Assembly: GCF_037039395.1 (NCBI RefSeq)
Contig: NZ_CP146242.1
Location: forward strand, 2,863,001-2,927,000
Direction: 5' to 3'
Source: Agrobacterium vitis
Lineage (GTDB): Bacteria > Pseudomonadota > Alphaproteobacteria > Rhizobiales > Rhizobiaceae
Length of the DNA stretch: 64,000 nt
A program made the translations under genes and the position numbers. Shown one piece after another: positions 4,983 through 50,110 of the stretch (its first letter is position 1; every line of letters begins with the position of its first letter). The notes beneath the pieces are model-generated. The model saw nothing but the letters and a program-made list of their open reading frames with translations. It did not search any database and was not told the DNA's origin.

Positions 4983-6017
4983 ATGACCAAGTACAAGCTC
5001 GAGTATATCTGGTTGGACGGCTATACGCCGGTCCCGAACCTGCGTGGCAAGACGCAGATCAAGGAATTCGCTGAATTTCCGACCCTCGAACAGCTCCCCC
5101 TCTGGGGCTTCGACGGTAGCTCCACCCAGCAGGCCGAAGGCCATAGCTCGGATTGCGTGCTGAAGCCTGTTGCTGTTTACCCCGATCCGGCCCGCACCAA
5201 TGGTGCATTGGTGATGTGCGAAGTGATGATGCCAGATGGCGTCACCCCGCATAGCTCCAACAGCCGCGCCACCATTCTGGAAGACGAAGGCACATGGTTC
5301 GGCTTCGAGCAGGAATATTTCCTCTATCAGGACGGTCGTCCGCTCGGCTTCCCGGAAAATGGCTATCCTGCACCGCAGGGTCCTTATTACACCGGCGTCG
5401 GCTTCAAGAATGTCGGCGATGTCGCGCGTGAAATCGTTGAAGAGCATCTGGATCTTTGCCTGGCTGCTGGCATCAACCACGAAGGCATCAATGCTGAAGT
5501 GGCCAAGGGCCAGTGGGAATTCCAGGTTTTCGGCAAGGGCTCCAAGAAGGCCGCCGACGAAATCTGGCTGGCTCGCTACCTGCTGCTGCGTCTTTGCGAA
5601 AAATACGGCGTCGATGTCGAGTTCCATTGCAAGCCGCTCGGCGATACCGACTGGAACGGTTCCGGCATGCACTGCAACTTCTCGACCAAGTTCATGCGCG
5701 AAGTGGGCGGCAAGGACTATTTCGAAGCGCTCATGGCGGCTTTCGCCAAGAACTGGAAAGAGCATATCGACGTTTACGGTCCCGACAACCACCTGCGTCT
5801 GACCGGCAAGCACGAAACCGCTCCGTGGAACAAGTTCTCCTACGGCGTTGCTGACCGTGGTGCATCGATCCGCGTTCCGCACTCCTTCGTCAACAATGGC
5901 TATCGTGGCTATCTGGAAGACCGTCGCCCCAATTCGCAGGGCTGCCCTTACCAGATCGCTTCCCAGGTCTTGAAGACGATTGCGGAAGTTCCGGCTGCCA
6001 AGTCCGAAGCTGCCTGA
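4983..6017 (+). CDS. glnII: Glutamine synthetase type II
   Basis: The product is 344 residues, the size of the eukaryote-like GSII rather than the about 470 of GSI. Recognisable landmarks are LEYIWLDGYTPVPNLRGKT at the N-terminus, LPLWGFDGSSTQQAEG, the catalytic FGFEQEYFL, EVAKGQWEFQVFG, NGSGMHCNFST and the C-terminal PHSFVNNGYRGYLEDRRP(N/A)S. It ligates ammonium to glutamate with ATP in the cytoplasm as an octamer or decamer. GSII lacks the adenylylation control of GSI, so control is mainly at expression. That fits the sigma-54 element, the NtrC palindrome and the divergent gstI gene upstream. The upstream in-frame extension has no family similarity; the ATG follows GAGAGATCGAC. Confidence 0.98.
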   Translation: MTKYKLEYIWLDGYTPVPNLRGKTQIKEFAEFPTLEQLPLWGFDGSSTQQAEGHSSDCVLKPVAVYPDPARTNGALVMCEVMMPDGVTPHSSNSRATILEDEGTWFGFEQEYFLYQDGRPLGFPENGYPAPQGPYYTGVGFKNVGDVAREIVEEHLDLCLAAGINHEGINAEVAKGQWEFQVFGKGSKKAADEIWLARYLLLRLCEKYGVDVEFHCKPLGDTDWNGSGMHCNFSTKFMREVGGKDYFEALMAAFAKNWKEHIDVYGPDNHLRLTGKHETAPWNKFSYGVADRGASIRVPHSFVNNGYRGYLEDRRPNSQGCPYQIASQVLKTIAEVPAAKSEAA

Positions 6018-6025
6018 TCCTCTCT

Positions 6026-6087
6026 GCTTGCGCCCAGATCCAACCGGGCTGATCCATCGGATCTTACCATCGGATCTGGGCGCAAGC
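6026..6087. repeat. Perfect 16-bp inverted repeat at the glnII 3' end
   Basis: GCTTGCGCCCAGATCC (6026-6041) is exactly inverted at 6072-6087, with a 30-base loop. It begins 8 bases after the glnII stop and has no T run behind it. It is probably the folded 3' end of the glnII mRNA, acting as terminator, RNase barrier or anchor of a 3' small RNA. Confidence 0.75.
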
Positions 6088-7155
6088 GCTCTTGATATGA
6101 TGTACCAGGGCATCGAAGGCGCCGATGCGTCCTTGTCTTGAAGATGGTGTGAATATTTCAAACCATTGATATTTTTGAATTTTTCTGAAGGGGAAGATGC
6201 GGCAGCGTCTTCGAGCCTTCGTAGAGGTGAAGATCGGCTGTGGTCTTCTATGGCCCTTGATCATTCAGTCAAAACGCCATCATGTGCTGTAAGCAGTATT
6301 CAAGGGTGAAGTGAATACGGTCGGGCGATTTTAAAATGAAGACTGCATCATTCCCCGTTCCGAAACAGATTTAAGCCCATCTGTACCCACTGTACATTAA
6401 AGCGTCGTCGTGGAATCGGGAATTTACCCTGTTTTTTTTAAGGCTTCGGCCTCTGTCGATGCATTGATAATAGCAATCCTGCCTATGTTGTTCGCGTATC
6501 GATCTAATTCCTCGGGTTTTTTATTTCAAAATATTATAATTTGATATATGTTAATAACAAGCAATGCTGGTTTTATAAAAATTCGGATAATACGATTGTT
6601 TTACTCTTTAATATGAGGGGTTTTTGCGTATAAAAACGACCTTGCGTCAAAAGCATTATAAACCCACTCATTTTGATTTTCTCTATGTTTGTTTATGTAT
6701 AATTTTTATTATTTATCCCTGTTTGAGGCAATATATCCATCCGTAAAGGTGTCAAAATTGTTTCATCTTCGGTCTGTATACTTAATTGGATAGAAATAGA
6801 AATTTAAACGTGCATTTGTGGAATTTTCTACTTTTGGGCGATTAATCCGGCATTAAGTGCAAAGTTCATCCCCGTTCTGTTTCGTTGATTTTTACGGGTT
6901 ATTGCAAGTCGGACACTTTACAAACGTGCCTTGTGCTGTTTTCATTGTCTCACGTTTTCAGGCTTGTGTGTCTGATTTGTATATAGTTTGTGAAATTTAT
7001 AGCAAAATCTGTGTTCGTTTTATTCGTGATTGTATCGTTTCGCGACAAATAGGTTTTTTGTTTTATATTTAAGTACGTCTAATTTGTATTGAGCAGTTGA
7101 ATTCATGACATGCTGATGCGTTTTATTTTGAGTGGCAGTTTTTGCGTTTCCTAGC
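6088..7155. other. Strongly AT-rich intergenic region upstream of the NRPS gene
   Basis: There are over 1 kb without a credible gene. Composition drops sharply: the line 6541-6600 has 15 G/C in 60, while the flanking genes are GC-rich. Short open frames occur (for example 6857-7072) but have no ribosome-binding site or family-like translation. Such AT-rich leaders often mark horizontally acquired clusters or silencer-bound promoters. No repeat or operator was recognised apart from the hairpin at 7156. Confidence 0.6.
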
Positions 7156-18631: not shown

Positions 18632-19450
18632 TCAGGCGGCTTCGCTGGCGCGGCGGTAGCTGGTTTCCACTTCCTGGCGCATGTCTTCCCAGATCGTCTT
18701 GCAATATTCGACGAATTCCGGCTCGTAACGGATCTCGGAGACAACACGCGGGCGCGGCAGCGCGATGGGGTAGACGGATTTGACCGTGGCCGGACCGGCG
18801 GTCAGCACATAGACCTTGTCGGCCAGCGCCACGGCTTCTTCCAGATCGTGGGTGACGAAAATCACCGAGGCCTTGCGCTCGGCCCACAGCTTCAGCAATT
18901 CCTCATGCATCACGGTGCGGGTCTGCACGTCTAACGCCGAGAATGGCTCGTCCATTAGCAGGATTTCCGGCTCGTTGATGAAGGTCTGGGCCAAGGCCAC
19001 GCGCTTCCTCATGCCGCCCGAAAGCTGGTGGGGATAGTGATGCAGGAACTTGCCAAGGCCGACGCGGGCCAGCCAGTCTTTCGCCAGCTTTTCTGCTTCG
19101 GTTTTGGATTTGCCGCGAAACAGCGGGCCAGCCATGACATTGTCGATGACATTCTTCCACGGAAACAGCGCATCCTTCTGGAAGGCGAAGCCGACGCGCG
19201 GGTCGATACCGTTGACCGGGCCGCCCATCAGCCGCACTTCACCAGCGCTGGGCTTGGCTAGGCCGGTAACGAGGTTGAGCGTGGTGGATTTGCCGCAGCC
19301 GGTCGGGCCGACGACGGCAACGAATTCGCCGCGCTCCACCGCCATGTTGAAATCCTTCAGCGCGGTCAGCGTCTTGCCGGTGGGGGAGACGAAACGGCGC
19401 GTCACATTGATGAGTTCGATAGCCGGGGTCCGGCTCTGATCTTTGGCCAT
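18632..19450 (-). CDS. ABC transporter ATP-binding protein (SsuB/TauB type)
   Basis: The product is 272 residues. Walker A is GPTGCGKST near 49, the Q-loop is AFQKDALFPW, the signature is LSGGMRKRVALAQ, Walker B is ILLMDEPFSALD, and the H-loop is VTHDLEEAV. GGAAGGA precedes the start. The gene lies between the binding protein (109 bases upstream) and the permease (13 bases downstream) and would energise the same importer. Confidence 0.95.
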   Translation of the reverse strand: MAKDQSRTPAIELINVTRRFVSPTGKTLTALKDFNMAVERGEFVAVVGPTGCGKSTTLNLVTGLAKPSAGEVRLMGGPVNGIDPRVGFAFQKDALFPWKNVIDNVMAGPLFRGKSKTEAEKLAKDWLARVGLGKFLHHYPHQLSGGMRKRVALAQTFINEPEILLMDEPFSALDVQTRTVMHEELLKLWAERKASVIFVTHDLEEAVALADKVYVLTAGPATVKSVYPIALPRPRVVSEIRYEPEFVEYCKTIWEDMRQEVETSYRRASEAA

Positions 19451-19559: not shown

Positions 19560-20579
19560 TCAGAACTTGGCGTTCTTGACGAATTCGGTCGTATAGGTCT
19601 TGGACAGGTCGATCTTCTTGCCCTTGACGTTCTTGGAGAACTCCGAGAGCACGGCCAAAACCGTCGGCGGGCCATCTTCCGGCATCACGCCATCGGGGGT
19701 GAACATGCCCTTGCCCGCGTCGAGAGCCTTGATATAGCCCTCCTTGTCGCCAACGTAGAAATCCTTCGGCATCTTTTCGGCAATTTCGGCAGCCGAATGG
19801 GTGTTGATGAATTTCAGCGTCTTGACGAAGGCGTTGGCAAGCTTCTGCACCTCTTCCTTATGCTCGTTGACCCAGGCGGTTTCCATGTAGAGCGAGGCGG
19901 CCGGATAGGTTCCGCCCAGTGCTTCGCGGGTCTTGTCCACGGTGCGCAGATCCACGAGAACCGAGGCTTCGCCGGTCTTGACCATGCGCGAAATCGTCGG
20001 CTCGGTGGTCATGCCGCCCTGAATGCTGGCCTGCTGCATGGCGGCAATGAATGTGCCGCCCGCGCCGACCGGGATGGTGACGATCTCGCCTGGCTTCAAT
20101 CCGGCCTTGGAGGCCATGTAAAGGGTGAGGAAATTGGTGGAAGAGCCAAGCCCGGTCACACCCAGCGTCTTGCCTTTGAAATCGGCAAAGCTCTTGATTT
20201 CGGGGTTCTTGGTCGAAACCAGCTCAACTTCGCCCGGTGCCTGGCTGAACTGCACGACCGATTCGACGAACTTGCCCTTGGCTTGCAGATCGACGCAATG
20301 ATCGTAGAAGCCGACCACGCCGTGGACAGCGCCCGCCAGAAGCTGGTTTTCCGCATCGACGCCAGCCGCTTCGTTCAGCAGCTCGACATCAAGGCCTTCT
20401 TCCTTGAAATAGCCAAGGCTCTCGGTCAGCTTGGCGGGCAGATAGATCTGCTTTTCAAAACCACCGACCATAATGGTGATCTTTTCGGCGGCCTGTGACA
20501 GCGCGGTGCTAGCCGTCAGGCTGGCAGCAGCAACGGCGCACAACGAAAGGGCGCGGAAAAATTGGCGTGTGGAACGCAT
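19560..20579 (-). CDS. NMT1/THI5-like ABC transporter substrate-binding protein
   Basis: The product is 339 residues with a Sec signal peptide (cleavage near LSQA/AEK). The NMT1-like fold is indicated by KITIMVGGFEKQIYLPAKLTESLGYFKEEGLDVELL, then QLLAGAVHGVVGFYDHCVDLQAKGK and the SFADFKGKTLGVTGLGSSTNFL pattern. The periplasmic protein delivers substrate to the permease encoded downstream. The ligand is not evident from sequence. Candidates are a purine-pathway compound, a sulfonate or a pyrimidine. The promoter should lie at 20580-20812; I saw no sigma-54 element or clear operator there. Confidence 0.92.
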   Translation of the reverse strand: MRSTRQFFRALSLCAVAAASLTASTALSQAAEKITIMVGGFEKQIYLPAKLTESLGYFKEEGLDVELLNEAAGVDAENQLLAGAVHGVVGFYDHCVDLQAKGKFVESVVQFSQAPGEVELVSTKNPEIKSFADFKGKTLGVTGLGSSTNFLTLYMASKAGLKPGEIVTIPVGAGGTFIAAMQQASIQGGMTTEPTISRMVKTGEASVLVDLRTVDKTREALGGTYPAASLYMETAWVNEHKEEVQKLANAFVKTLKFINTHSAAEIAEKMPKDFYVGDKEGYIKALDAGKGMFTPDGVMPEDGPPTVLAVLSEFSKNVKGKKIDLSKTYTTEFVKNAKF

Positions 20580-20812
20580 GGATATTATCCTCCTCTGGGT
20601 CAGTCCCGTGGCGCGCTCCCCGGCGCGTCTCCTCCACGGGATGGTGGAGCGTTTGTAGCAGCGCTACCTTTCAGTCAGCTTTCAGAGGGCGAAAAAATGA
20701 ATGGAGTCCTAACAGTGTTAAAATGTGGCCCACCCTCTTTACGCTTGGATGGCGGCCCGCAGCGATCGGATTTGCGCACGGCCTCTGTCTCGCGATCCCT
20801 TCTGATCCATTC

Positions 20813-23800
20813 TCAATCGAGAAAATTATCAAGCGATTGGAAGACACCTGCCGTTTTCCAGTGGTTTCTGTTGCCGACGACGTAGAGAGCCTCTTTGGCT
20901 CTTGTCGCGGCAACATTCAGCAAATTAGGACGCCCACCGGCCCAACCGCGCGCGCCGCGCTGCTGCGCATCTGGCGCTCCCAAAATGAAGAAGACGGCTT
21001 CCGCCTCTCGGCCTTGTACAGTGTGAACCGTGCCAATACGCTCGCGAACCCACTGATAGGGAGTGTCTACCCAGCCATCGAGTATGCCGCTTGTCCGCAA
21101 TGCGTCCCGCATGCGATCCTGCACCACGACAAACGGCGTCACGACATAGAAATCGGGCGGGCATTTGTTATCCTTAAGCTGGCGCAAAACTGCCAGCAGC
21201 GCGGTGCCTTCCTGGGGGCACCATTTTTCCTGCCCGCGTCCTTCGACATCGATCCATCGTGATGGACCGAGAACATCTCTGATGGCAGAGGATTTTGCGA
21301 CCTTCGCCTGAACCATCAGATTTTCGTAAGCGATAGAATTGGAAATGCTGAACATTGGCTCTGCGCAGCGGCGATGCACGAGCAGCGGAACGCCAACTTC
21401 ACGTGTTCCGAACTTCGTCTCGAACGTGCCGTAATATTCGGTGGCACTGTCGGCCAATGTCTGGGTGGAGGCTCCTGGCGCATTATAGATCAGTGGATCT
21501 ATGCCGAACTGGTGGCACATGGCTTCAGTCAACTGATCAGGCAAGACGACAACCGGCTCGATCTGGATGGGGTCGCCCACAACCATTGCCCGTTGCGTTC
21601 GCATCAATGCGCCGATGGCAGCCTGTGGCAAGGCTTGCCCTGCTTCGTCCACAAGCAGCCATCCGAAGGCGTCTGGCCCGATCTTGGTAAACATCCGAGA
21701 GACCGACGCGAAGGTCGTCGATATCACCGGCACCAGCAGGAACAAGGTGGACCATATATCGGGGATCAGCGCATCCTTTTCAGGGCTACCCAGCGAGCGG
21801 GTGCCAAATCCATCCAGCAGCACGTTAAGATTATGCCGGATGGGTTTGGCGGCGGCATCGATGAACGCCTTGTGAAGAGCCATCGCCGCCTCGAACACAT
21901 CGTTGCGCAGATGCGCCGTCGTCGCGTCCAGCCAAGGCGCGCTTTTCTGCTTTTCCGGATGGCGCTGTTCGAAGAAATCATCCGAGATAAATATGCCGGG
22001 ATAGTGTTGGCTAAGGGCGTCTAAGGCACTCCGTTCGCGGTTCAGTGCTTCGGTCAATCCTGCGATTGAGGCTTCCATCCTCTTGAGCTCACTATCGGCG
22101 CGCGCATGTTCGGAACTCTTGACATTGGCATCAGCCGCCAGGCTTGAGAGCGTCGCTTGCTCGGACATGAAGCGTTGGGTGATGATATCGTGTGCTGCAC
22201 GCCATGACCGGTAGGTCTGGGTGCCGAAAAGACGGCTGAACAATCCCGGACGGTGTTTTGCGGATGCGTCGAAGTCTTTTTTCAACGCGTCTACGATTTT
22301 TCTCTGGGCATTTGATAGGGACACAGCGTGTCGCGCGCGTTCCGCCATCGCGGCAACGACTGGGCTCATTGTGTCTATTTCAGCACGAAGGCTACCAATC
22401 GTTTCCAGCTTTAACGGGATAGAGCGTAGGAGATCGTGGGCTTTTTGCAAATCGGCCAATTTCGTTTTGGCGGATGCCGTCACTTTGCGGAAATGCTGGC
22501 GTGCCTTCTTCCAGCGCCGCAAGGCCTCCTCGTGGTCCTCTGGCGCGTTTTCGTTGACGATAATATGCGGAGGTCTTTGCTTTGTACCGGTTTCAGTCTT
22601 CTCTGTGATGAATTGGGGATTGCCGCTGGCCTGCTGCAAATATTTCTGCATGCCAACATCTTCGCCCCACCAGAAGGTTTGCCGGAAATCGCTGCGGTTC
22701 TTGCTGTTGCCGAGGACTGCCGCAACCGTTCCCCAGGTGTCGCGCTGCAACAGCGCGTCCGAGACGGTTTTGAAATACCGCAGACCATTGGCATCTGCCG
22801 CAATAGCCTCCATTGAGGGCAGTTCGGCGCTGACATTCTCCGCGGCTTTGTTGTTGGAGGACGCGACAATCATCTCGTAGCCGGTGATCTTGCTATCAAG
22901 ACGGTAGAGTTGAACGAAGGCATTTCCCTTCCTCATTCTCTGACCGGAATGGATGAAGGCTTTTTCCGGTTCGTCATAGGTGCAGAGAATTTCCGCCCGC
23001 TTGGTGACGAGAGCGGCGATGACATCGCGCAGGAGCGTGGTCTTGCCTGTGCCGGGTGGGCCGTTGACCGCCAAAATGCCATCCGTCTTCAGGTCATGTA
23101 TGGCGAGATTAACGGCGCATTGCTGGAGAAGCGCCAACGGATGCCGGCCATTGCCCGGCCACGATCCCAAGGGGAATTTTTGGGGTTCGAGAGCATCTGC
23201 AAGCGCCTCATTGTCCTTCATCAGATTGCGGCGGCTGCGCGGTTTGATGACGCCCAGGTAGCGCTTGAGGTTTGGTGTCGCCTTGCCAGAGGCTATGAGC
23301 GAGCGGGCCATGGCCAGATCGTCGAGAAAGAAGGAGTTGAGCAGGATCGACTCCGGCGGGTCTTTCAGCTTGAAGAATTGATAGGATTTCACGGCAAAAG
23401 CCGGAGGCTTTGCAAATTGAGCTGACAGACCGATGGTCTGAACCAGCCAGTCATAGGCAGTCTGGATCGTCTTTCTTGTCAGCGGTAATATCTTGCCGTC
23501 TTCACCTTTTACGACCACTTTATTGGTCAGACCTTCCAAGAGCGCCCGTTCCGCCTGCGACCATTGGGCAAGATCGCCAAGCCGTCCGCTCAGCGCTAAC
23601 GGAATTCCCCATCCGAAACTGGCAACGGAAACGGCTTCTTTTTCTACAGGGCGACCTTCCCGGTCCAACATGATCGTGGCAAGCACGGCCTCTCCACGCG
23701 CCTGTGGGCGTTCGGCCCTGCTGTCGGTGTAGACAGATAGCAAGGCTGAGACGGCAGCTTCCATGTCGACGCTGCCAAGCACGACTTGATAATACAGCTT

Positions 23801-23941
23801 CTGATTCGGGCGGCTCTTCTCACCGCCGTTCTCCCAGGGGAGAACCTCCTTATTGATATCGCCAATGCGGTAACGATCGCCGCCGGTCAAATCTTCCGGT
23901 TTGCGGAAAGACGGCGGTGACAAGACCTCCATTGCTGTCAT
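20813..23941 (-). CDS. UPF1-like superfamily 1 helicase/ATPase with novel N-terminal region
   Basis: The product is 1042 residues. SF1 motifs appear in order: Walker A GPPGTGKTT (294-302), motif II LLVDEAGQA (762-770), motif III VVGDPIQIEP (787-796), motif V TVHTVQGREAEAV (971-983) and motif VI NVAATRAKEAL (1009-1019). This is the AAA_11/AAA_12 (DNA2/UPF1/SMUBP2) arrangement, which in known relatives unwinds DNA or RNA 5' to 3'. Between motifs I and II lies a charged, probably coiled-coil insertion (about 470-660). Residues 1-280 match no family I recognise. The start overlaps the stop of the small gene upstream by four bases (ATGA), so the two are coupled. The operon sits between a transporter and guaD with no metabolic link, and sampled lines look less GC-rich than the neighbours. 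Antiviral defence or nucleic-acid processing is a guess. Confidence 0.88.
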   Translation of the reverse strand: MTAMEVLSPPSFRKPEDLTGGDRYRIGDINKEVLPWENGGEKSRPNQKLYYQVVLGSVDMEAAVSALLSVYTDSRAERPQARGEAVLATIMLDREGRPVEKEAVSVASFGWGIPLALSGRLGDLAQWSQAERALLEGLTNKVVVKGEDGKILPLTRKTIQTAYDWLVQTIGLSAQFAKPPAFAVKSYQFFKLKDPPESILLNSFFLDDLAMARSLIASGKATPNLKRYLGVIKPRSRRNLMKDNEALADALEPQKFPLGSWPGNGRHPLALLQQCAVNLAIHDLKTDGILAVNGPPGTGKTTLLRDVIAALVTKRAEILCTYDEPEKAFIHSGQRMRKGNAFVQLYRLDSKITGYEMIVASSNNKAAENVSAELPSMEAIAADANGLRYFKTVSDALLQRDTWGTVAAVLGNSKNRSDFRQTFWWGEDVGMQKYLQQASGNPQFITEKTETGTKQRPPHIIVNENAPEDHEEALRRWKKARQHFRKVTASAKTKLADLQKAHDLLRSIPLKLETIGSLRAEIDTMSPVVAAMAERARHAVSLSNAQRKIVDALKKDFDASAKHRPGLFSRLFGTQTYRSWRAAHDIITQRFMSEQATLSSLAADANVKSSEHARADSELKRMEASIAGLTEALNRERSALDALSQHYPGIFISDDFFEQRHPEKQKSAPWLDATTAHLRNDVFEAAMALHKAFIDAAAKPIRHNLNVLLDGFGTRSLGSPEKDALIPDIWSTLFLLVPVISTTFASVSRMFTKIGPDAFGWLLVDEAGQALPQAAIGALMRTQRAMVVGDPIQIEPVVVLPDQLTEAMCHQFGIDPLIYNAPGASTQTLADSATEYYGTFETKFGTREVGVPLLVHRRCAEPMFSISNSIAYENLMVQAKVAKSSAIRDVLGPSRWIDVEGRGQEKWCPQEGTALLAVLRQLKDNKCPPDFYVVTPFVVVQDRMRDALRTSGILDGWVDTPYQWVRERIGTVHTVQGREAEAVFFILGAPDAQQRGARGWAGGRPNLLNVAATRAKEALYVVGNRNHWKTAGVFQSLDNFLD

Positions 23942-24318
23942 GCTGACAGGACATTGCTGGCGTCGTTGGTGATAGGAGGCCGTTCGAGCGGCGGGCGGTT
24001 GGCGGATGGGGTGGAGCCTCTCGGCGCCTCTGACGTTCCAATCGGTGAGGCTATAGGTGTTTCGACAGACGTCGGGATAACTGGAGATGAACGAACTGGA
24101 GCAGTCTGGTGGTTCGCGACATCCGGCAGAGGTGGTTTGGCAGTCACTCCTATAGATTGCATTACGCGTTGCCGTAATTCGTTTGCACGCTGGACTTTCC
24201 GCTCGGATAGTTCCTCAAACAACTGGTTCAGAAACTCTGGATCACCGCGCCGTTGATCGAACAGTTGCTCAAGTTCTACCACACCCTTTTGGATCAACGG
24301 TCTTTTGGCCATATTCAT
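23938..24318 (-). CDS. Small helical protein with Pro/Ser/Thr-rich tail, partner of the helicase
   Basis: The product is 126 residues, family not recognised. Residues about 10-57 are strongly helical and charged (VVELEQLFDQRRGDPEFLNQ, then LFEELSERKVQRANELRQRV). Residues 58-126 are rich in Pro, Ser and Thr and probably disordered. The stop overlaps the helicase start by four bases, so the proteins are probably made in a fixed ratio and may form a complex. ATG 24318 and ATG 24312 are both possible; AGAG lies upstream. No signal peptide or membrane segment. A role as recruiter or regulator of the helicase is inferred only from coupling. Confidence 0.75.
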   Translation of the reverse strand: MNMAKRPLIQKGVVELEQLFDQRRGDPEFLNQLFEELSERKVQRANELRQRVMQSIGVTAKPPLPDVANHQTAPVRSSPVIPTSVETPIASPIGTSEAPRGSTPSANRPPLERPPITNDASNVLSA

Positions 24319-24407
24319 AAAATCTCTGATTGATAGGACAGGACTTTATTTACGATCAAAGGTTGCGATAAGCCTAAATTTCCTCTCTTTGACACGGAAA
24401 GAGTGTG

Positions 24408-25715
24408 TTAAATCCGCGGTTTCGACGCCACGCCCGCCACATAGGTTTCCACCACCACCCGGTCGTCGCCCAGCGTCTGCATGAGGAACAGTTCTTCGGT
24501 CAGTGAGGTTACAGCTTCCATTTTCAGTGCCATGGCAGGCGTGGCATGGGCATTGAGTACCACCAGATCGGCTTCGGTGCCTGACGCGAGCGTGCCGATC
24601 TTGTCGGAGAGCGACAGCGCTTCGGCATTGCCCAGCGTCATATGGTAGAAACTGTCCAGCGGGTTCAGCCGCTCGCCCAGCAATTGCTGGATCTTGTAGG
24701 CCTCATCCAGAGTGCGCAGCATGGAATAGCTGGTGCCGCCGCCGATATCGGTGGCAAGGGCAACGCGCACCGGCTTGGTCCGCCGCTGGATGGCTTTCAG
24801 CGGAAACAGGCCGGAGCCAAGGAACAGGTTTGACGTTGGGCAATGCACCGCGACAGAGCCTGACTCAGTGAGAGCGTCCGCCTCACGCTCCGAGAGGTGA
24901 ATGGCGTGACCGAACAGGGTTTTACGCCCGAGCAGGCCGTAGCGGGCGTAGATATCCGTATAGTCGGATGACTCAGGGTAAAGGCTGGCGGTGAAATCGA
25001 TTTCCTCGCGGTTCTCAGAGAGATGCGTCTGGATATGGAGATCAGGAAATTCATGGGCCAGCGCCTGGGTTCGCTCCATCTGCTCCGGTGTCGAGGTGAT
25101 GGCAAAGCGCGGCGTGATGGCCACGAGATTGCGTCCGCGACCGTGCCAGCTTTCAATCAATTCCTTGGTTTCGTCATAACCGCTTTGCGGCGTGTCCAGC
25201 AGGCCCTGTGGCGCATTGCGGTCCATCATCACCTTGCCGGCGATCATCCGTGTGCCACGCCTTGCGCTCTCGGCAAAGAAGGCATCCGCCGAGGTTTTAT
25301 GCACCGAGCAATAGGCCACCGCCGTCGTCGTGCCTTGGCGCAGGAATTCATCGAAGAAATGCGTGGCGATCCGCGCTGCATGCGCAGTTTCAACGAAGCG
25401 GCATTCCTCCGGGAAGGTATAGGTGTTCAGCCATTCCAGCAGGTTGGCGGCGTAGGAGCCGATCACCTGCATTTGCGGGAAATGCACATGGCAGTCGATA
25501 AAACCGGGCAGAATCAGATGTGGGCGGTGATCAATCTCCACGGTCTGCGCGTCGGCCTCTGCTTTGACACTGTCATAGGTGCCGGAGGCGAGGATCAGGC
25601 CGTTTTCTACCAGGACGGCGCCATCGCTTTCAAAGAGATAGCTATCTGTATCGGTGATGTCGCGGGGCTGGCTGCGGAAGGAGAGCAGGCGTCCACGGAT
25701 CAGGGTCTTTGTCAT
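24408..25715 (-). CDS. guaD: Guanine deaminase
   Basis: The product is 435 residues, of the amidohydrolase superfamily. Zinc ligands are visible in the FIDCHVHFPQ motif near residue 76, in IQTHLSE, in FGHAIHLSE and in ATDIGGGTSYSML. The 9-residue HCPTSNLFLGSG box is typical of guanine deaminases. It converts guanine to xanthine and ammonia in the cytoplasm, feeding XdhAB. Its ATG overlaps the puuD stop (TAATG), so guaD is the second gene of a puuD-guaD operon. Confidence 0.95.
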   Translation of the reverse strand: MTKTLIRGRLLSFRSQPRDITDTDSYLFESDGAVLVENGLILASGTYDSVKAEADAQTVEIDHRPHLILPGFIDCHVHFPQMQVIGSYAANLLEWLNTYTFPEECRFVETAHAARIATHFFDEFLRQGTTTAVAYCSVHKTSADAFFAESARRGTRMIAGKVMMDRNAPQGLLDTPQSGYDETKELIESWHGRGRNLVAITPRFAITSTPEQMERTQALAHEFPDLHIQTHLSENREEIDFTASLYPESSDYTDIYARYGLLGRKTLFGHAIHLSEREADALTESGSVAVHCPTSNLFLGSGLFPLKAIQRRTKPVRVALATDIGGGTSYSMLRTLDEAYKIQQLLGERLNPLDSFYHMTLGNAEALSLSDKIGTLASGTEADLVVLNAHATPAMALKMEAVTSLTEELFLMQTLGDDRVVVETYVAGVASKPRI

Positions 25716-48278: not shown

Positions 48279-48442
48279 AATCACGCAGAAGCCCCCGCCA
48301 CTGTCCTTTGGCTTATGGGCCAGCATTGTAACAAAGGAATGAAGGTGGATTGATCGCCTGACTTGACCATCGCCACTGGTCATCGCGGCATTGAGCCCTA
48401 TAGTCTTGAAGTGCCGAATTTTTTGAGCAGAGGATGGGCCAT

Positions 48443-50110
48443 ATGCCGACCAAGACCGATCGTGCCAGCAAAACCACAGTGAACGCAGTGAGTGATTGGT
48501 GGCGCGGCGCGGTTATCTATCAGGTCTATCCACGCTCGTTTCAGGATACGACAGGCGATGGCATCGGCGACATCAAGGGCATAACCCAGCGCTTGCCCTA
48601 TATCGCCTCGCTCGGTGTCGATGCCATCTGGCTGTCGCCGTTCTTCACCTCGCCCATGGCTGACATGGGCTATGACGTCTCGGACTATTGCGATGTCGAT
48701 CCGATGTTCGGCACGCTTGCCGATTTCGACGAGATGATGAAGGAGGCCCATGATCTCGGCCTGAAAGTGATTATCGACCAGGTAATTTCCCATACATCCG
48801 ACCAGCACCCCTGGTTCATTGAGAGCCGCTCCAGCCGCAACAATCCCAAGGCTGACTGGTATGTCTGGGCCAATGCCAAGCCGGATGGCACCGCACCGAG
48901 CAATTGGCTATCGGTGTTCGGCGGCCCGGCCTGGGAATGGGATGGGGTGCGCAAGCAATATTACATGCATAATTTTCTGGGCTCCCAGCCGGATTTGAAT
49001 TTCCACAATCCGCAGGTGCAGCAGGCGGTGCTGGACGCCACCCGTTTCTGGCTGGAGCGCGGCGTGGATGGGTTCCGGCTGGATACCGTGAACTATTATT
49101 TTCACGACAAGGAATTGCGCAACAACCCGCCCCATGCCCCAGACAGCGGCGATGCCGGGCTCGATGCGCCGGATGTCAATCCCTATGGCATGCAGGAACA
49201 TCTGCACGACAAGACCCAGCCGGAAAATATCGGCTTCCTGCAAAAACTGCGGGCGCTGCTGGATGAATATCAAGACCGCACCACGGTCGGCGAGGTTGGC
49301 GATGGCGCGCGGTCGTTGAAAACCGTGGCCGCCTATACCAGTGGCGGCGACAAGCTGCATATGTGCTACACATTCGATCTGCTGGGGCCGCATTTCACGC
49401 CGTCGCATATTCGCGATTGTGTCACCTCCTTCCAGTCCATGGTTAGGGATGGCTGGGTGTGCTGGGCCTTTTCCAACCATGACGTGGTGCGCCATGTCTC
49501 GCGCTTTGCCCAGGGGCCGGAAGAGATGCCGCAGGTGGCCAAGCTTGCCATCAGCATTCTTGCCAGCATGCGCGGCTCGATCTGCCTTTATCAAGGCGAG
49601 GAACTCGGCCTGCCGGAGGCCGATCTTGCCTTTGAGGACCTGCGCGATCCCTATGGCATCCGCTTCTGGCCCGCATTCAAGGGCCGCGACGGATGCCGCA
49701 CGCCGATGGTCTGGGAAAAAGCCAAGGCAGAGGCCGGTTTTACCAGCGGCAAGCCATGGCTGCCGGTTCAGCCGGAGCAGCAGGCTCTGTCGGTGGACGC
49801 CCAGGATAAAGATAAGAGCTCGGTGCTCAACCATTACCGCAACATGCTCGCCTTCCGCAAAGCCCATCCGGCCCTGCGCGATGGGTCAATGTCCTTCCTC
49901 GACATTAACGAGGATGTACTGGCCTTTCTGAGGGAGCAGAACGGCGACAAGCTGCTGTTCGTCTTCAACATGCGTCGCGGTCCGCAGGAAGTCCGGCTGC
50001 CCGAGCATATGATGGTGAAAGACGTCATCGCTCTGCCGGAGGCCCGCAGCACGTTTGAAAAGGGCGTGATTACGCTCGATGCGCTGGACGGTTTTTGCGC
50101 GCGGGTGTGA
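48443..50110 (+). CDS. aglA: Alpha-glucosidase, glycoside hydrolase family 13
   Basis: The product is 555 residues. It starts WWRGAVIYQVYPRSFQDTTGDGIGDIKGI. GH13 regions are visible: DQVISHTSDQHPWF (region I), GVDGFRLDTVNYY with the nucleophile Asp (II), TTVGEVGD with the acid/base Glu (III), and AFSNHDVVRHV (IV). It cleaves alpha-glucosides such as sucrose, maltose or trehalose in the cytoplasm. It resembles rhizobial AglA, but the aglEFGK transporter genes are not adjacent. ATG 48443 was chosen since AGAGG is correctly spaced for it; ATG 48434 abuts that site. Confidence 0.94.
   Translation: MPTKTDRASKTTVNAVSDWWRGAVIYQVYPRSFQDTTGDGIGDIKGITQRLPYIASLGVDAIWLSPFFTSPMADMGYDVSDYCDVDPMFGTLADFDEMMKEAHDLGLKVIIDQVISHTSDQHPWFIESRSSRNNPKADWYVWANAKPDGTAPSNWLSVFGGPAWEWDGVRKQYYMHNFLGSQPDLNFHNPQVQQAVLDATRFWLERGVDGFRLDTVNYYFHDKELRNNPPHAPDSGDAGLDAPDVNPYGMQEHLHDKTQPENIGFLQKLRALLDEYQDRTTVGEVGDGARSLKTVAAYTSGGDKLHMCYTFDLLGPHFTPSHIRDCVTSFQSMVRDGWVCWAFSNHDVVRHVSRFAQGPEEMPQVAKLAISILASMRGSICLYQGEELGLPEADLAFEDLRDPYGIRFWPAFKGRDGCRTPMVWEKAKAEAGFTSGKPWLPVQPEQQALSVDAQDKDKSSVLNHYRNMLAFRKAHPALRDGSMSFLDINEDVLAFLREQNGDKLLFVFNMRRGPQEVRLPEHMMVKDVIALPEARSTFEKGVITLDALDGFCARV

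Follow-up and report, generated by a model that had tools for sequence, protein, structure and literature searches.

The helicase ORF and the short ORF upstream of it

The window, a stretch of 64,000 nucleotides from the chromosome of Agrobacterium vitis (contig NZ_CP146242.1), contains two overlapping open reading frames (ORFs) between the gene of an ATP-binding cassette (ABC) transporter substrate-binding protein and guaD. The upstream member of the pair comprises 126 codons, and the downstream member encodes a helicase of 1042 residues. In an initial annotation made from the sequence the two ORFs had been described as a sporadically inserted operon, in which a UPF1-like helicase of superfamily 1 (SF1) was translationally coupled by an ATGA overlap to a small adaptor protein, a layout resembling that of many antiphage systems. 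Both ORFs, the overlap and the location between transporter gene and guaD were found as described (Table 1). By comparison with relatives, the two ORFs appear to be the pieces of one gene, cut by a one-base frame offset.

The window helicase belongs to the UPF1-like SF1 class. In Pfam the 1042-residue ORF matched AAA_11 and AAA_12 above the cut-off, and nothing significant was obtained for the 126-residue ORF. The full set of motifs claimed in the annotation is present and in order, with what we take to be motifs I, Ia, II, III, IV, V and VI at helicase residues 294, 359, 764, 787, 932, 973 and 1010. For structural analysis an AlphaFold2 model of the full-length relative P0003 (85% identical) was used, for which 22 sequences were supplied (mean predicted local distance difference test score (pLDDT) 77.1, predicted template modelling score 0.65). 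In this model three head helices (residues 14-58) are followed by a segment with pLDDT <50 (59-110), and these are the counterpart of the small ORF, in agreement with the annotated helical head and disordered tail. A mixed region ahead of motif I and the helicase core follow, and long helices at 597-689 and 701-773, corresponding to about residues 470-646 of the window helicase, form the coiled-coil insertion that had been placed between motifs I and II. The best solved folds for the P0003 model were Ighmbp2, Dna2, Upf1, Senataxin and Sen1, the fold being closest to UPF1, IGHMBP2 and Dna2; these fold matches (VIA rows) span residues 117-1169 and are no proof for the head or the pre-motif-I region individually. 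By analogy with the matched fold families, 5′-to-3′ polarity and the use of RNA or single-stranded DNA would be predicted.

The small ORF as probable N-terminus of the helicase gene

The closest homologues exceed the window helicase ORF by about 120 residues, and the 12 closest relatives are single proteins of about 1165 residues, all of which (P0003-P0014) carry 121-139 residues ahead of the sequence EVLSP. The small ORF corresponds to this extra N-terminus in five aligned relatives, and the alignment was extended to 22 relatives. The relatives read ...RPLIQKG..ELE.LFDQRR..., then NVLSA or similar, and continue in frame with W-TAMEVLSPP..., whereas in the window the small frame stops directly after NVLSA and the helicase frame starts at TAMEVL. 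Although the helicase frame is open for 91 codons 5′ of its ATG, the head is not encoded there.

The occurrence of the head was determined for 80 named loci, representing the best 80 of 452 relatives, and loci with a query start of 40 or less were counted as head-bearing. The head was present in 39 of the 80, namely in 20 of 22 at 45% identity or more, in 19 of 25 at 36-44% and in none of 33 at 35% or less. A single ORF crosses the junction in 38 of these 39 loci, the exception being L096; at L109 the frame is likewise single across the junction but shortened further downstream. With eight further loci (five plasmid records and three genome stretches), all single-frame, the count reaches 46 of 47 head-bearing loci. 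Six additional loci have one open frame each, as does G341, whose protein is about 70% identical to P0003. Among the examined loci the split in the window is unique. Since the distant relatives, of which none at 35% identity or less is headed, start near the same residue as the helicase body, the head can be regarded as a module added onto the helicase.

A profile built from 11 heads was searched against 5827 short-protein candidates. The nine matches consisted of the window's own head, two proteins running into the helicase body, two undecided pieces of 109-112 residues and four heads elsewhere. At the sensitivity of this profile, no recurrent free-standing head partner was found among the 5827 candidates, and the separate small partner gene proposed in the annotation was therefore not recovered; a first stand-alone search with the small ORF had returned itself as the sole match. 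The heads outside helicases were P0126, in which Pfam gave a weak DnaJ-like segment (E 0.0082), and P0127-P0129, free-standing proteins of 76 residues. The three-helix head may be a general docking module.

The inverted repeat at the junction is perfect in the window (6 bp within 15 nt) and imperfect in G012, the congener that carries the gene at the same site. Quasi-palindrome mutation would leave such a perfect versus imperfect repeat. RNA folding at the junction was ordinary (z 0.32), and a scan for promoters and terminators gave nothing beyond shuffles. A programmed frameshift was judged unlikely, as the break occurs in this genome only among the examined loci and the RNA folding is ordinary.

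Table 1. Features of the helicase locus and nuclease genes adjoining relatives.
Feature	Position	Strand	Remarks
Head: N-terminal three-helix segment and disordered proline-rich linker of the helicase gene	23938..24318	-	Here an ORF of its own (126 aa)
ATGA overlap, head/body junction	23938..23941	-	Departure from the single frame of relatives; inside perfect 6-bp inverted repeat (15 nt)
Helicase body (UPF1-like SF1)	20813..23941	-	1042 aa: pre-motif-I region, two RecA-like domains, coiled-coil insertion
Motif I (Walker A), GPPGTGKTT	23036..23062	-	
Motif II (Walker B), VDEAGQ	21635..21652	-	
Coiled-coil insertion, two long helices between motifs I and II	22004..22534	-	Predicted from AlphaFold2 model of P0003, residues 597-773, offset 127
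Inserted 3.7-kb cassette	20706..24405	.	Compared with empty site of congeners
Left flank: ABC transporter substrate-binding protein gene	19560..20579	-	Adjoins guaD where the cassette is missing
Right flank: guaD	24408..25715	-	
Mrr-type nuclease genes (C-terminal domain)	L048:12466-14091, L049:12561-14261, L176:9564-11261		Xanthomonas and Agrobacterium plasmids

Insertion between the transporter gene and guaD

The helicase gene is an accessory insertion. In the genus, with the own genome included here and in all genome counts below, guaD was found in 62 of 63 genomes and the adjoining ABC substrate-binding gene in 12 of 63. In G007 the two flanks are on separate contigs; in the other 11 genomes they are near each other on the same contig. 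The cassette is absent from nine of these 11 testable genomes, the own genome and G012 being the two that have it. Between the matched flank stretches lie 3831 bases in the window, 3830 in G012 and 131-322 in the other nine. The breakpoints align at 20705/24406 in five of the nine empty sites, and one or both ends are shifted by 8-125 bases in the other four. The insertion edge lies 107 bases beyond the helicase stop, and the helicase gene is the sole content of the cassette, in which no transposase ORF was found and no target-site duplication was seen by eye. GC content at third codon positions is lower in the insert genes than in four neighbours. At the gap between guaD and the substrate-binding gene, G015 and G061 (L052, L054) carry a different insert of 191 bp, bounded by the direct repeat TTGTTAAATC.

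At E≤0.001 the helicase was matched in 13 of 150 genomes, in nine of these 13 by short or 35% matches only, and near-full-length matches of at least 42% identity were restricted to the own genome, G012, G044 and G128. With P0003 as query at E≤1e-60, 9 of 247 genomes of the family matched, mostly partially and at 35-42%. The distribution of the helicase family is sporadic, and the accessory character assigned in the annotation is upheld on two counts: among the 11 testable genomes of the genus two alone have the cassette at this locus, and the helicase is not universal. A housekeeping or purine role was rejected because nine of the 11 genomes with the same neighbours lack the cassette. Elsewhere in the window, the kilobase 6001-7000 has a GC content of 0.40, compared with 0.58 and 0.53 in the adjoining kilobases.

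The copy in G012 and selection on the gene

The G012 copy, 95% identical and located at the same site, reads through the junction and is interrupted by a single in-frame TGA where helicase residue 718 would be. A second family member in G012 (L061, G012:C1:87000-106000), 42% identical, has no internal stop. Between the window and G012, the rates of synonymous (dS) and non-synonymous (dN) substitution for the body were 0.188 and 0.024, a ratio of 0.129. For the head dN/dS was 0.45, calculated from 28 changes only (12 synonymous, 16 non-synonymous), and for guaD and the substrate-binding gene the ratios were 0.063 and 0.027. Of 250 columns that are invariant across 22 relatives, two are changed in the window body, one at the junction and one from V to A in motif Ia; none is changed in G012, and two are in the intact relative L145. 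Because the dN/dS of the body is low and the invariant columns are nearly all kept, the helicase body looks recently functional. Nine other gene pairs around the locus showed no break in the alignment of window and G012, apart from start choice.

Genes in the vicinity of the helicase and its relatives

For 38 named head-bearing relatives, the genes up to two positions away were searched for defence genes with the PADLOC models. The neighbouring ORFs were called by length, proteins of >1500 residues were excluded, and 140 of 171 listed neighbours were scanned in batches of 71 and 69, the 31 from plasmid or unnamed-genome loci being left out. At 1e-10 the two batches matched 44 and 194 models. 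Among the 25 listed for each were SngB, SngC, AbiEii, BrxHI, BrxD, DpdJ, DpdF, DruE, PycC, mad2, mad3, mad8 and GajB as well as an oligonucleotide cyclase, a SAVED effector and restriction, modification and specificity subunits of type I. As a control, 68 random genes from six stretches of the window's chromosome matched three models (mad3 and two LmuB), which are generic; in the window, an ordinary transporter ATPase (18635-19450) is matched by mad3 as well. In the window itself 49 proteins were scanned, matching nine models at E≤1e-10, of which three belong to the helicase, and the C3a214 match is a GlgB-like protein of 558 residues (48434-50107). Further matches in the window, to Csa3 (two models), LeoA and LeoBC with best E values from 1e-18 to 1e-14, come from proteins outside the ten that were re-scanned.

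An Mrr-type nuclease gene follows the helicase in three of 95 fetched loci (L048, L049 and L176), with Mrr_cat found in the two that were scanned. In a survey of 89 loci, for which the longest same-strand ORF of at least 150 residues within 600 bases downstream was taken, a common gene was found at L069 and L108 only; at L049 the survey took another ORF and the Mrr gene was found by direct search. A constant downstream effector was rejected on these two results. At L063:3435-8021 (G128) a gene of 1529 codons overlaps the helicase end by a few bases and has no Pfam match above the cut-off. Relatives were also present on 16 viral contigs, three of them head-bearing in a pattern-based scan, and in five matching phage records, numbers that do not support viral carriage as the main home of the family.

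Interpretation as a probably split gene

The locus probably represents one accessory gene for a solo, nuclease-less UPF1-like SF1 helicase of defence type, which is split in this genome. The family consists of helicases of about 1165 residues, most of which have no recognisable nuclease gene to go with them and some of which are situated among defence genes, and a defence-type function is the most likely prediction for it. In the window sequence the frame change at the head/body boundary parts the three-helix head and its flexible linker from the helicase body, and the overlapping ATGA may let ribosomes restart, so that the body with its motifs would still be made. Most likely the helicase would use ATP to move along single-stranded nucleic acid and so counter invading DNA or RNA, while the coiled-coil arm and the tethered head would serve to dock other proteins. 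As it has no nuclease, its effect would come from remodelling or from a trans-acting effector, of which the adjoining Mrr-type nuclease at three of 95 loci could be an example.

Several observations weigh against this interpretation. In the 119 homologues listed beside the query (the best 120 of 4504, protein entries only), at least 100 residues precede EVLSP in 86, 10-99 in 17 and fewer than 10 in 10, among them P0015, P0018, P0021 and P0058, and the exact motif is absent from six. The 27 of 119 with fewer than 100 residues could be late-called starts, headless or split; predictions poor in heads do exist. The V to A change in motif Ia affects a column that is otherwise invariant, both copies at the site are interrupted, and the cassette may be decaying. 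The tallies of neighbours count models, and several of these (BrxHI, DpdJ, DpdF, DruE and HamB; type I) may stand for one protein or locus, while the control comes from one genome; with many models possibly matching one protein or locus, and mad3 hitting an ordinary transporter ATPase, relatives and control differ clearly in kind, but the difference is not a calibrated enrichment. The helicase aside, no defence gene was confirmed in the window, where the source proteins of the Csa3, LeoA and LeoBC matches were not located. The anti-phage role of the head-bearing family is itself a prediction.

Three alternatives deal with what follows from the split and can in part be reconciled with the interpretation as one split accessory gene. 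Recent loss, in which the cassette is a pseudogene and nothing useful is made, is a possibility to be taken seriously, though one that we tend to doubt: the two copies at the site carry differing lesions (the frame change and the TGA of G012) next to nine unbroken neighbouring gene pairs, the cassette is missing from nine of 11 genomes and shortened relatives occur elsewhere (L096, L106 and L109), but the body is conserved at all but two of the 250 invariant columns and its dN/dS is not neutral. Functional fission, by which head and helicase would be made as two chains through stop-restart at the ATGA and reassociate into a working two-subunit enzyme, seems unlikely. It is favoured by the overlap, by the intact motifs and dN/dS of the body and by the start of the body near that of the headless distant relatives, which suggests that head and body are separable modules; it is opposed by its restriction to one genome against 46 of 47 other head-bearing loci with a single frame, by the lack of a ribosome-binding site visible by eye before the inner start and by the dN/dS of the head with its few changes. 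A sequencing or assembly error, with the gene intact in the organism, is rather improbable. A one-base frame offset would be the simplest error and the site is an inverted repeat, but no long homopolymer run is present there, the neighbouring genes show no similar break, and the head protein P0002 is listed on two contigs (the longest of 22,097 bases, not the 3.9-Mb contig of G000), so that other contigs seem to have the same end. A further-reaching proposal, to which we give little credence, would see an unnamed single-gene, nuclease-less defence family whose head and arm recruit effectors, with the window copy as a natural fission whose two chains are made by stop-restart and cooperate.

A two-gene defence operon of motor and adaptor, as initially annotated, is suggested by the gene layout alone and is hardly credible. 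The two-component idea falls because relatives encode the sequence of the small ORF as the N-terminus of their helicase gene; with the head in frame with the helicase in 46 of 47 loci and no recurrent free-standing partner, the small adaptor was rejected. The defence-like surroundings of some relatives agree with the resemblance to antiphage systems noted in the annotation, while the adaptor pairing is lost. A spurious component is thereby removed from a candidate defence system, and the case illustrates how an offset of one base in the frame can look like translational coupling within an operon. What stands in its place is a family of UPF1-like helicases that is widespread yet sporadic and mostly lacks an adjoining nuclease gene; its best match in the defence library is Mokosh type II despite the missing defining domain.

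Comparison with known systems

The annotation had recognised no named system, and no exact one was found here; the helicase groups with the MkoC- and CnuH-like helicases. Its top match in the defence library was MkoC of Mokosh type II (PADLOC PDLC03924; 206.8 bits, helicase residues 264-1029 against profile positions 244-948 of 1136), leaving the last ~190 profile positions unmatched. The same model was matched by all 22 aligned relatives and also in 11 of 14 control genomes, so that the match alone is unspecific. PMC10952713 lists both Mokosh types, I and II, as having a PLD-like domain, and PMC11291487 describes Mokosh as degrading foreign viral transcripts. The C-terminal PLD-like nuclease of MkoC was not found in the window helicase: PLD is not among the best 25 of 32 Pfam rows, and P0001 has no HKD motif. 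With Mokosh type I (MkoA and the adjoining MkoB) only a partial match to the MkoA core is shared, and MkoB is not among the nine models matched in the window at E≤1e-10.

According to PMC11090510, CnuH of type II and III CoCoNuTs is a helicase of the UPF1-like SF1 class in which a large, helical coiled-coil insertion follows Walker A, and members of the wider CnuH family are typically accompanied by a CnuE effector encoded downstream. A coiled-coil insertion after Walker A is common to CnuH, as described there, and the P0003 model. None of the CoCoNuT partners CnuB/McrB, CnuC/McrC and CnuE lies in the insertion. Eukaryotic UPF1, IGHMBP2, Dna2 and Senataxin/Sen1 share the SF1 fold and motifs at about 14-22% identity over aligned residues and differ in their accessory parts. 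In the open-licence literature searched in full text, no description of a head-bearing, nuclease-less helicase like that of the window was recognised. The helicase is thus related to MkoC and CnuH and, by the features tested (for CnuH by description), a member of neither, because the PLD part is missing in the one case and the partner genes in the other. The same architecture, at 36-85% identity, is found in the head-bearing family annotated as 'AAA domain-containing protein' or 'DEAD/DEAH box helicase', mostly from Proteobacteria and Nitrospira, which, unlike the split copy in the window, has a gene that runs unbroken through the junction at 46 of 47 loci.

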